A DNA stretch of 64,000 nt, taken from positions 1 to 64,000 of the forward strand of contig DAHXLX010000004.1 of NCBI GenBank assembly GCA_027365775.1, written 5' to 3'. A model generated the notes under the pieces. It made no database searches, was not told where the DNA came from, and worked only from the letters and a program-made list of their open reading frames with translations. The position numbers and the translations under genes are program-made. Position 1 is the first letter of the stretch, and each line of letters opens with the position of its first letter. Positions 15,474 to 19,464 of this stretch are shown piece after piece. The stretch comes from Candidatus Saccharimonadota bacterium. GTDB lineage: Bacteria; Patescibacteriota; Saccharimonadia; Saccharimonadales; UBA4665.

Positions 15474-16187
15474 TTGTCGGTTTACAGCAATACACAAATA
15501 AAAGCGGCAATCGATGATGGACATATAATTTGCGTGCCGTATAATCCAAAACACATCGCACATGCCAGTCTCGACGTAACACTCGGCAGCTATTTTTATC
15601 GCATTGAGCGCATGAATGAAAGGACGATCTATAATCCTTTCGACAAAGAAGATGTCGAACGATATTTTGACGGCCCGTATAAAGCCACGGCCCATGGTGA
15701 CTGGTGCAAACAAAACGGCTTCCTGCCACTAGCCAACATCCCAATTGATCACCCGGTAATCAGTCTCAAGCCACGCGAACGGATATTGGCCCACACTCAC
15801 GAATTTTTCGGCATTAAACCGCCCGGCGCCTATGAATTAAAATCACGCTCAAGCTGGGGCAGAAACGGTATTGCAGTTTGCTTTGATGCCGGATGGGTAG
15901 ATCCGGGCTATATTAACCGGTTAACTCTGGAAATATATAATTTGAATGATCGCGAAACCGTATTATTACCGGTGGGCGAGAGAATAGCCCAGGCTGTATT
16001 TTTAGAAACCGGTCCGGTTGACGGCGATTATGGTAAAGGCCGGGATAACGGTTTCAGCGGTAAGTATCAGCAAGGTAGTGATCTGGAAACAATTATTAAA
16101 ATCTGGTCACCGGACATGATGCTGCCAAAAGCCTACAAAGATAACCGGACATTACCCTTACCGATCAGTGGTATGGCTTATGACTAG
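15474..16187 (+). CDS. dcd: dCTP deaminase-like protein
   Basis: TTG start; SLDVTLGSYFYRIE, ELKSRSSWGRNGIAVCFDAGWVDPGYI. Confidence 0.85.
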   Translation: MSVYSNTQIKAAIDDGHIICVPYNPKHIAHASLDVTLGSYFYRIERMNERTIYNPFDKEDVERYFDGPYKATAHGDWCKQNGFLPLANIPIDHPVISLKPRERILAHTHEFFGIKPPGAYELKSRSSWGRNGIAVCFDAGWVDPGYINRLTLEIYNLNDRETVLLPVGERIAQAVFLETGPVDGDYGKGRDNGFSGKYQQGSDLETIIKIWSPDMMLPKAYKDNRTLPLPISGMAYD

Positions 16188-18564
16188 AGGCAAGTACATC
16201 GTCATTGAAGGACCGGAGGGGGTTGGCAAGACCACCCAGATACTTGAACTGGCCCGCCGCTTACAAGTTGCCGGATTGCCGGTTCGAACTCTCAGAGAGC
16301 CCGACTCACAGAGCGATCTGACGGCTCGGGCGATCCGTAACCTAACCCAAGACCCTAGATATCCGATGAATACACACACTGAGGTACTGTTATACAATGC
16401 CGCGCGTTCCCAATCACTTCAGGTCATCAAGCATAGTATTGAGCAGGGTATTATTTGTCTAGTTGACCGCAACTACCTGACAACTTTAGCAATTCAGTAT
16501 TACGGTAGAGGCGATGTACCCGATTATGACACCATTAACCGAATTATTGCTTTCGCGGTTAACGGTGTCGAACCGGACCTGACAATCGTACTTGACGCTC
16601 CGGTACCAATCCTGATACAACGGCAGTCTAAGCGCAATCAGGGCGATAGATTCGACAATCTAGATGCTGCATTTCTAGAACGAGTCAGGGCCGGCTATCT
16701 ATGGGAAGCAAACCAGCGACAACTGCCGATAGTTTTTGCCGACACAACGACAGACGTGGTTACCGAAAGAATCTGGAAAATTGTCGCCAAGACTCTTAGC
16801 ATAAGAGAAAAAAACATAGCCACTGAAAGCCAGATTCCATCAATCGCAGAAGTATTGAAATCCGAACCGCCGCTACCGCAGCTAAACGCCGAACCGGCCA
16901 AAACTATTGAACCGGAAGAACGTCCGTTGATTGCTAAAACCGACAGCGGTTATCTTTTTACCGACGCCGGAATTGAGTTCCTGAAGCAGGCAGTAACCGA
17001 TACTGACGGTGACGTATACGCCTTTACCAACTTCCTCCCGCCAGCAACCGTAGCCGCAGCTATGGCCAGACTTAGCCGTCGAGGTGATGATATGCGCATA
17101 ACCCTGTTAGAGGAATTCGCCGGTAAAGCCGGCAAGGACACTAATTTATTAAGACGTATTATTACAGCTTACGGTGATGACTCGGTCCAACAGTTAGCCG
17201 GCGTGCATTTGGTAGTTGAAAACGCATCTAATCTACTGACTAAAAAATTAGAATGGGGCAGGCTGGCCGCATATCTAGAGCAATCGACACGATACATATT
17301 CTTTGATAAAAAAGACAAACGTGGTAAGTATCGCTATTACGTACCGGCAGAACTAGACACTAAAACCGAACAAAACTACACACAGGCGATGAATAAAATA
17401 TTCAGCATTTACTCTAACCTGGTCCATAAGCTGACCGACTATGTGGTATCGATTAGCAACGTTCCGCTATCTGAGCGCGACGCCGCATTCCGCTCGGCAA
17501 CTAAAGCGCAAGCATGCGATGCCATCAGGCCGCTACTACCAGTCGCTACCACTGCGACAGTCGGAATATATGCATCCGGCCAGGCACTGGAGAGTCTAAT
17601 TATGCACTTATTAAGCGACGAACTGGCGGAGGCACGGCGCACCGGTCAGGCGATCTTACAACAAGCCCGAAAAGTCATCCCCATGTTTTTGGAACGAGCA
17701 GATAAGCCCGAGCGGGGCGGAGCAATGATTGCCTATCGGGCCAATACTGCGCGTGCAATGCAGCAGTTAGCCAATAATATCTTAGACTCAAACCTGTCTG
17801 ATAACGGCAGCAAAAGCATAACACTAACTGATGTTTGGCCGAGAAACGAGCTGGACCTGGTCGCAGATATGTTATATGAACACAGCAACATGCCGCTTCA
17901 ATCCATACGCGCAACGGTCAATGAATGGTCATACGAGCAAAAAGAAGAAGTTATCCGTACATACGTCGGCGAACGGCTAAATCGCCGCCAACGACCGGGA
18001 CGAGCCCTGGAAAAAGTCCACTACAGCTGGGACTTGGTTTGTGATTATGGCATTTTCCGCGATTTGCAGCGTCACCGCATGGTCGATGACATGGAATGGC
18101 AAAAATTAAGCCCGCGTTACGGCTATGACATCCCTAAGCTTGTCGAAGATGCTGGGCTAAGCGAGCAATTCGAGTCCTGCTTCGATATAAGCCTGAAATT
18201 ATACAGTGATCTGCAGGCGTCCGGATACATCAATGAATCTCAATATGCTACACTTCTCGGCCACCGTATGCGCTGGAAAGTTACCTATAATGCCCGCGAA
18301 GCGTTCCATCTCCACGAACTTAGAACCGGCCCGCAAGGTCATCCCGGCTACCGCAAACTGGTACAGGAAATGCATGATGTAATATCCAACATCCATCCAC
18401 TGCTAAGCAATGCAATGACGTTCGTAAACCAAGATGAAGACCCCAAATTAACCCGACTTGCCGCCGAACGTTATACCCAGTACAAGCTTGCCCAGCTCGA
18501 TCAAGAAATTAATTCAACGCCCAACGGCAAGAAGGACAGCGACACCACTAAACAGATGGTGTGA
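16180..18564 (+). CDS. Thymidylate kinase fused to ThyX-like (FAD-dependent thymidylate synthase) region
   Basis: N-terminus KYIVIEGPEGVGKTTQ (Tmk P-loop); C-terminal ThyX-like EQSTRYI and FRDLQRHRMVDDMEWQKLSPRYGYDIP. Confidence 0.85.
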   Translation: MTRGKYIVIEGPEGVGKTTQILELARRLQVAGLPVRTLREPDSQSDLTARAIRNLTQDPRYPMNTHTEVLLYNAARSQSLQVIKHSIEQGIICLVDRNYLTTLAIQYYGRGDVPDYDTINRIIAFAVNGVEPDLTIVLDAPVPILIQRQSKRNQGDRFDNLDAAFLERVRAGYLWEANQRQLPIVFADTTTDVVTERIWKIVAKTLSIREKNIATESQIPSIAEVLKSEPPLPQLNAEPAKTIEPEERPLIAKTDSGYLFTDAGIEFLKQAVTDTDGDVYAFTNFLPPATVAAAMARLSRRGDDMRITLLEEFAGKAGKDTNLLRRIITAYGDDSVQQLAGVHLVVENASNLLTKKLEWGRLAAYLEQSTRYIFFDKKDKRGKYRYYVPAELDTKTEQNYTQAMNKIFSIYSNLVHKLTDYVVSISNVPLSERDAAFRSATKAQACDAIRPLLPVATTATVGIYASGQALESLIMHLLSDELAEARRTGQAILQQARKVIPMFLERADKPERGGAMIAYRANTARAMQQLANNILDSNLSDNGSKSITLTDVWPRNELDLVADMLYEHSNMPLQSIRATVNEWSYEQKEEVIRTYVGERLNRRQRPGRALEKVHYSWDLVCDYGIFRDLQRHRMVDDMEWQKLSPRYGYDIPKLVEDAGLSEQFESCFDISLKLYSDLQASGYINESQYATLLGHRMRWKVTYNAREAFHLHELRTGPQGHPGYRKLVQEMHDVISNIHPLLSNAMTFVNQDEDPKLTRLAAERYTQYKLAQLDQEINSTPNGKKDSDTTKQMV

Positions 18565-19153
18565 AATGATAGTTAATCCCGATAATATCTCGTAAAGAGT
18601 CATGCATAATATATTGACAGGTAACATCAGTCGCTTCAGGTTCATGCAATACCTCGTCAGCCAGAACCCGACCGATGAATTGAAATTTGCGCTGACTCTC
18701 AGCGAGAGTTGTACTAAACCGCCGATACTTTTCGCAATCGCTCCAGTCAATACTCGGCACGACCAATAAGCTATACCGATAGCTATCGCTTTGGTCAGCC
18801 ATCATCTTACCAAGATGAACCCGTAACTCGTTATTGACGTGTTGGTAGAACTCATTTATTGCCGGCACATAGATAGTTTCGCTATTATTTTTACTAATAC
18901 CATCAATTGCCCATTTCAAAAACTCAAGAGCAACAAATTTTTCCGCATCTTTATCGAGATCGTGTTGCTTTAGTTGATCGACATAGCACTCCTGCCAATA
19001 CTTATCGTCAAGCTTTATTTTCTTATTGCCGGCATTATTGCCGGCATAATGGTATTTAAAGTCTTCATGACAGGCATCCATCGAACGCTCAACATAACCC
19101 CAGGTACTACCTGCGGTCATAGCGTTGTTTGTTTTTTCCAGAACTACACTCAT
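18548..19153 (-). CDS. Hypothetical protein (201 aa)
   Basis: Long ORF, convergent with and overlapping thyX by 17 nt. Confidence 0.55.
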   Translation of the reverse strand: MSVVLEKTNNAMTAGSTWGYVERSMDACHEDFKYHYAGNNAGNKKIKLDDKYWQECYVDQLKQHDLDKDAEKFVALEFLKWAIDGISKNNSETIYVPAINEFYQHVNNELRVHLGKMMADQSDSYRYSLLVVPSIDWSDCEKYRRFSTTLAESQRKFQFIGRVLADEVLHEPEATDVTCQYIMHDSLRDIIGINYHFTPSV

Positions 19154-19179
19154 TTTAATAAACCGTGGTTAGCTTACTC

Positions 19180-19464
19180 TCAAGCTAAAGATTTGTCAAT
19201 GCCCAGTATTTCAAAGCTAACAGAGTTATGATTTGCTCTGGGTGATGGTTCTGTCAGTGCTACAACCGCTAACGCCCGATTGATGCTCGAAGAATTGATC
19301 GTAGTATCTGCTTCCGGCTTTTGGCCGACTACCCGCCCGGTCGATATGGCATCATCCAGTAGCCAAGAAGTATCGATAACACCGAAATAGGCTCCAGACC
19401 ATTTAACCATTTCCGCATTACTAGCCCTGCCGTTAAGTACGTCTCGGTGTTTTGTAAAATCCAT
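19180..19464 (-). CDS. Hypothetical protein (94 aa)
   Basis: ORF directly downstream (minus strand) of a terminator-like hairpin. Confidence 0.45.
   Translation of the reverse strand: MDFTKHRDVLNGRASNAEMVKWSGAYFGVIDTSWLLDDAISTGRVVGQKPEADTTINSSSINRALAVVALTEPSPRANHNSVSFEILGIDKSLA

Follow-up and report, generated by a model that had tools for sequence, protein, structure and literature searches.

The window analysed here, a 64,000-nucleotide stretch of DNA from a Candidatus Saccharimonadota bacterium, contains a single open reading frame that joins an N-terminal thymidylate kinase (Tmk) to two diverged ThyX-like halves, D1 and D2, between which the residues of the ThyX active site are divided. 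We regard it as probable that the product is a bifunctional dTTP-synthesis enzyme, in which a two-part ThyX with a split active site is tethered to a Tmk. Sequence comparison establishes the domain make-up, the division of residues, the conservation and synteny of the gene and, in many genomes, its position as the sole source of Tmk. The features referred to below are as follows (ThyX residues in M. tuberculosis numbering):

15474..16187, plus strand: dcd-like dCTP deaminase gene, directly upstream, with an 8-bp overlap with the fusion gene.
16180..18564, plus strand: tmk-thyX-thyX' fusion gene, 794 aa plus stop, with full-length fused homologues.
16204..16773, plus strand: thymidylate kinase domain (type A), residues 9-198, from PF02223, TIGR00041 and Foldseek.
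16210..16233, plus strand: kinase P-loop GPEGVGKT, read from the sequence; the P-loop is also kept in decayed relatives.
16813..16929, plus strand: linker, residues 212-250, mostly disordered by prediction (AlphaFold2 pLDDT <50).
16930..17784, plus strand: first ThyX half D1, residues 251-535, putative dUMP side; Thy1 match 17041-17682, 2.9e-18.
17248..17295, plus strand: D1 substrate loop LEWGRLAAYLEQSTRY; E-x-S-x-R-Y retained, first R and H of RHR gone.
17812..18519, plus strand: second ThyX half D2, residues 545-780, putative FAD side; Thy1 match 17863-18399, 5.0e-16.
18061..18126, plus strand: D2 motif DLQRHRMVDDMEWQKLSPRYGY; RHR retained, loop 3 residues longer.
18289..18342, plus strand: D2 motif NAREAFHLHELRTGPQGH; equivalents of N188, R190, H194 and R199, where D1 mostly has S/Q/S/H.

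The fusion frame opens with an ATG at 16180, an in-frame GTG also being present at 16168, and this start codon overlaps with the 3' end of the preceding dcd-like gene (ATGACTAG). The latter matches Pfam DCD at 3.1e-31 and scores 91 bits against TIGR02274, slightly below the cut-off of 92.8. Downstream, the interval from the fusion gene to rplJ contains two small ORFs on the minus strand, of 201 and 94 aa (18548-19464).

The preliminary description of this DNA, made from the letters alone, had proposed an N-terminal Tmk followed by two ThyX-like segments. Pfam and NCBIfam profiles bear this out, and the motifs quoted are present. The protein matches Thymidylate_kin (PF02223) at 2.2e-26 (93 bits, cut-off 27), and its kinase half exceeds the TIGR00041 dTMP kinase equivalog cut-off (104.3 bits versus 83.25). 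The P-loop is accompanied by a DR motif in the form DRN, with Asn in place of the aromatic residue, and by a LID arginine in DRF; by Foldseek, the kinase domain aligns to solved Tmk structures with TMt values of 0.84-0.91. Pfam Thy1 is matched at 2.4e-34 over two separate stretches. An HMM alignment to a single ThyX domain had been named as the outcome that would speak against the proposal; the profile search of the genome gave two separate Thy1 matches in the fusion, at 63.8 and 56.4 bits against a cut-off of 24.8. The TIGR02170 thyX equivalog cut-off is not reached (50.3 bits versus 87.9), this model having 211 positions, that is, the single-domain form of ThyX. The 50 matches listed for a Foldseek search with the full-length model were all Tmk, so that this search is uninformative on ThyX. 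The AlphaFold2 model of the window protein (pLDDT 87.5, pTM 0.68) has disordered linker segments at 212-221 and 227-244 with pLDDT <50. As modelled, the tether would be long and flexible, suggesting proximity of the two enzymes rather than a fixed tunnel.

To follow the active site, 104 D1, 106 D2 and 18 single ThyX domains were aligned, with M. tuberculosis (Mtb) ThyX numbering taken from a PDB alignment. Residues that are invariant in single ThyX sort into two sets, one per half, and the split is near exceptionless in more than 100 homologues. D1 retains E103, S105, R107, Y108, R172 and E207, and carries W-G for R95-H96, S for N188, Q for R190 and mostly H for R199. D2 retains E74, R95, H96, R97, N188, R190, H194 and R199; its sharpest losses are R172, replaced by Q, and E207, mostly replaced by G. 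Thus R95 and H96 are W and G in D1 (86% and 91%) and R and H in D2 (99% and 96%), R172 is R in 97% of D1 and Q in 97% of D2, and E207 is E in 100% of D1 and G in 77% of D2. In the window protein the dUMP-binding set of D1 corresponds to E367, S369, R371, Y372 and R450, and the FAD/uracil set of D2 to RHR 631-633, N704, R706, H710 and R715. A decayed ThyX half was considered for this protein and rejected, all assigned residues being present.

Neither half contains RHRx7S within one domain, its pieces being divided between them. The complementary half-sites suggested in the preliminary description are therefore real features of the alignment, and the division extends to R172, E207, N188, R190, H194 and R199. 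Its reading that the Ser of RHRx7S is replaced by Gln in D2 does not survive alignment of the homologues, which have 3 extra residues between RHR and S-P-R-Y. Since this insertion precedes an S/T-P-R-Y that remains, the Gln at the "RHRx7" position is not equivalent to the loop Ser, which is Thr in 76% and Ser in 16% of D2 domains. Across D1 and D2 together, the only assigned active-site residue not found is the equivalent of T. maritima H53, D1 having Asp and D2 Pro at this place; to judge from the title of PDB entry 4kas, crystals of an H53D mutant of the T. maritima enzyme were obtained with FAD and dUMP.

According to a review, RHR and R199 of subunit A, S105, R107 and Y108 of subunit C, and S71 and R190 of subunit B come together in one Mtb ThyX active site (PMC6514825); R172 binds the dUMP phosphate (PMC9571937). 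The residue sets of the two halves match these published roles, which assigns the subunit C role to D1 and the subunit A role to D2; by the same match, a homodimer should form two active sites, not four. The residues of subunit B are divided, S71 being retained in D1 and occupied by a near-invariant Arg in D2, with R190 retained in D2, so that by sequence the subunit B role is not cleanly assigned to either half.

For the proposed enzyme we infer both activities, the oligomeric state and the number of sites. The ThyX halves would have arisen by duplication and then shared out the active site, D1 acting as the dUMP-holding and D2 as the FAD- and uracil-holding subunit. By analogy with the tetrameric enzymes, two fused chains may pair to give a pseudo-tetramer in which two sites are live and two dead, and whose two-fold symmetry would suit a dimeric kinase. 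The first step, from dUMP to dTMP, would fall to the C-terminal two-part ThyX and the second, phosphorylation of dTMP to dTDP, to the kinase tethered at the N-terminus, both steps lying downstream of the dCTP deaminase encoded in the same operon.

The fusion is conserved across Saccharimonadales, in most of the group, and is not a local oddity. Dozens of genomes encode full-length fused relatives with about 50-72% identity, which takes the arrangement far outside what chance would produce; the named relatives are Candidatus Saccharibacteria. Of 393 genomes of the order, 309 match the fusion protein, many of them full-length and fused; matches in family f2 are mostly weak. Tandem Thy1 frames of about 450-620 aa were often found in a set of 380 genomes from the whole phylum; among the matches listed, frames of 737-814 aa occur only in Saccharimonadales. 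The gene often lies at rplA-dcd-X-rplJ: among 140 related ThyX ORFs, dcd is upstream on the same strand in 96, rplA upstream in 51 and rplJ downstream in 50, many loci being too short to show either of the last two. An assembly artefact was rejected on the basis of this conserved synteny and the presence of the fusion in dozens of genomes. The preliminary description was right that the kinase fusion exists and judged it the unusual part; it missed how widely the arrangement extends through the order with shared synteny, and also the repeated exchange of kinases and the decay of ThyX beside another thymidylate synthase.

Among genomes of at least 90% completeness, many yielded no Tmk other than the fused one (for example G457, G472, G492, G508, G523, G446, G452 and G464); of the indirect signs that the kinase half is functional, this is the strongest. 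In the window's own genome (715 kb, 70% complete) no other Tmk, no other ThyX and no ThyA were found; at this completeness the assembly could simply lack a ThyA or a further Tmk. Unfused neighbouring tmk-thyX pairs also occur within Saccharimonadales, at L131 (15-bp gap), L130 (overlap) and L126. Separately, a second, divergent clade of stand-alone Tmk (L003 771-1397, L004 2538-3191, L005 2532-3182, L089, L097, L103 and L109) is found, in most cases, some 800 bp ahead of the fused gene, in the interval from rplA to dcd. The fusion of genome G406 is split into two open frames within D1 (L094 3067-4059 and 4108-5373), a break that may be either real or a sequencing error. Genome G081 encodes a fusion with intact ThyX and ESS for the DR motif (L046 253-2586) and has three Tmk matches; this sequence suggests that its fused kinase may be impaired.

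The N-terminal kinases of the fusions are of two types, type A, found in the window and TIGR00041-like, and type B, whose best match is PRK07933. In the kinase tree, these form separate groups, type B grouping with stand-alone kinases that adjoin thyX in other Patescibacteria. In trees of the ThyX part alone they interleave: the starred branches force at least five changes, 0 of 200 bootstrap trees put A or B in one clade, and the AU test rejects a single clade of type A (p 0.016). L137 (type A) and L048 (type B) are 73% identical over ThyX and 25% over the kinase. This difference and the interleaving on the ThyX trees indicate several in-frame exchanges of the kinase half at one and the same position, whether through separate fusions with an unfused neighbour or through recombination of one fused gene with another.

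The ThyX half has a different history. In thirteen Tmk-ThyX proteins most catalytic residues of ThyX are gone and the kinase P-loop is retained, and Pfam Thy1 fails to detect most of these decayed copies. Another thymidylate synthase, counted as ThyA or a separate intact two-part ThyX, is present in 12 of the 13 genomes with a decayed fusion versus 4 of 58 with an intact one (Fisher p 1.7e-9, the rows not being independent). By our reading of the trees, decay involves at least four lineages. Where another thymidylate synthase is present, the ThyX half usually decays and the kinase stays. The exception is G459, a genome that yielded no other synthase and whose fused ThyX has decayed. Between species of family f181, identity is about 30% over the remnant and about 60-70% over the kinase. 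One remnant still models as a ThyX fold (pLDDT 80, TMt about 0.6-0.68 to solved ThyX), from an alignment that included intact relatives. In G449, which has ThyA, no remnant is left, and dcd and rplJ flank a kinase gene on its own. A required scaffold role for the decayed remnant was considered and is weakened by L196, where the remnant is absent. A strongly diverged fused copy in G479 (L124 2854-5142) has a degenerate ThyX and DG for the kinase DR motif; this genome also carries an intact unfused two-part ThyX elsewhere (L123).

Other readings of the protein must be set against this history. A tandem of two complete ThyX units that simply doubles the dose would agree with both halves scoring above the Thy1 cut-off, but D1 is without R95, H96, N188 and R190 and mostly without H194 and R199, D2 is without R172 and E207, and the losses are near-universal and complementary, which makes this hardly credible. 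It is scarcely more probable that the kinase half acts on another nucleoside or nucleotide: DRN for the usual DR plus aromatic residue, REPD for REPG and a second, separate Tmk in some relatives point that way, but the equivalog cut-off is exceeded, the best fold matches are Tmk, and many near-complete genomes, in which a dTMP kinase should be essential, show no other Tmk. The ThyX region might instead be a pseudo-enzyme serving only as scaffold or regulator of the kinase, as the 13 relatives that keep a long ThyX-like region on the kinase without its residues, and the one decayed region that models as ThyX, could imply. We consider this improbable, because the window protein has every assigned residue with no ThyA found, decay accompanies another synthase, the decayed part diverges far more quickly than the kinase, as in f181, and G449 has lost the region entirely at the same locus.

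Why the two enzymes are joined is a separate question, and here we are more tentative. The tether of dTMP synthase to dTMP kinase may itself be selected, for local dTMP transfer or coupling, with distant kinases repeatedly installed in the same fusion and locus while the split-site ThyX stayed; we put this forward as a possibility, short of an expectation. Neutral operon compaction, in which neighbours merged in a small genome and the tether brings no gain, is likewise conceivable without being favoured, and is compatible with a bifunctional enzyme. The adjoining tmk and thyX genes of many unfused Patescibacteria and of unfused Saccharimonadales, the remnant-free kinase at L196 and the predicted disorder of the linker agree with compaction; the repeated replacement of a kinase half that is nonetheless still fused, and the retention of the fusion across many families, argue against it.

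The proposed bifunctional enzyme can be placed among known systems as follows. Canonical ThyX/FDTS (T. maritima TM0449, M. tuberculosis ThyX; PF02511) belongs to the same family and has the same active-site residues once the halves are pooled, but is one domain of about 230 aa forming a homotetramer with four identical sites, whereas the fusion has two diverged halves per chain. Tmk (TIGR00041; P. aeruginosa, S. aureus) shares the P-loop, LID and fold of the N-terminal 200 residues, but is normally a stand-alone dimeric protein, whereas here it is tethered and carries the DRN motif. The suspicion that a two-part ThyX family is wider in CPR bacteria proved well founded, since the tandem Thy1 frames of the 380 genomes are widespread in Patescibacteria. 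Unfused two-part ThyX proteins there (L036, L038, L041, L145 and L146) have the same tandem and largely the same split, but no kinase in the chain, several having tmk as the next gene; their D2 additionally loses R107 and Y108. The Tunturiibacter jumbo phage Tunturi_5 encodes an unfused two-part ThyX, annotated thymidylate synthase (L206 3046-4602; PP885688.1), with partly the same split and a D2 that deviates at some positions, so the tandem is not confined to Patescibacteria. The phage gene adjoins dCMP deaminase and lies near dUTPase; its D1 keeps E-S-R-Y-R-E and its D2 keeps RHR, other D2 residues differing. DHFR-TS of protozoa and plants is a fusion of coupled thymidylate-pathway enzymes; unlike the present case, it joins ThyA and DHFR, which are unrelated enzymes, at a different step. 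No PDB entry for the two-part ThyX was found by sequence search, and no description of the fusion, the two-part ThyX or the split site was found in open-access full text.

The residue division suggests that the dUMP-holding and FAD-holding roles lie on separate domains of one chain and could be mutated one at a time, which would open the inter-subunit mechanism of ThyX to direct tests that are out of reach with a homotetramer. Recurrent replacement of the kinase, together with decay of ThyX beside another synthase, provides a natural experiment on why enzymes fuse, and the fusion is the usual form in a large, mostly uncultivated group of bacteria with reduced genomes.
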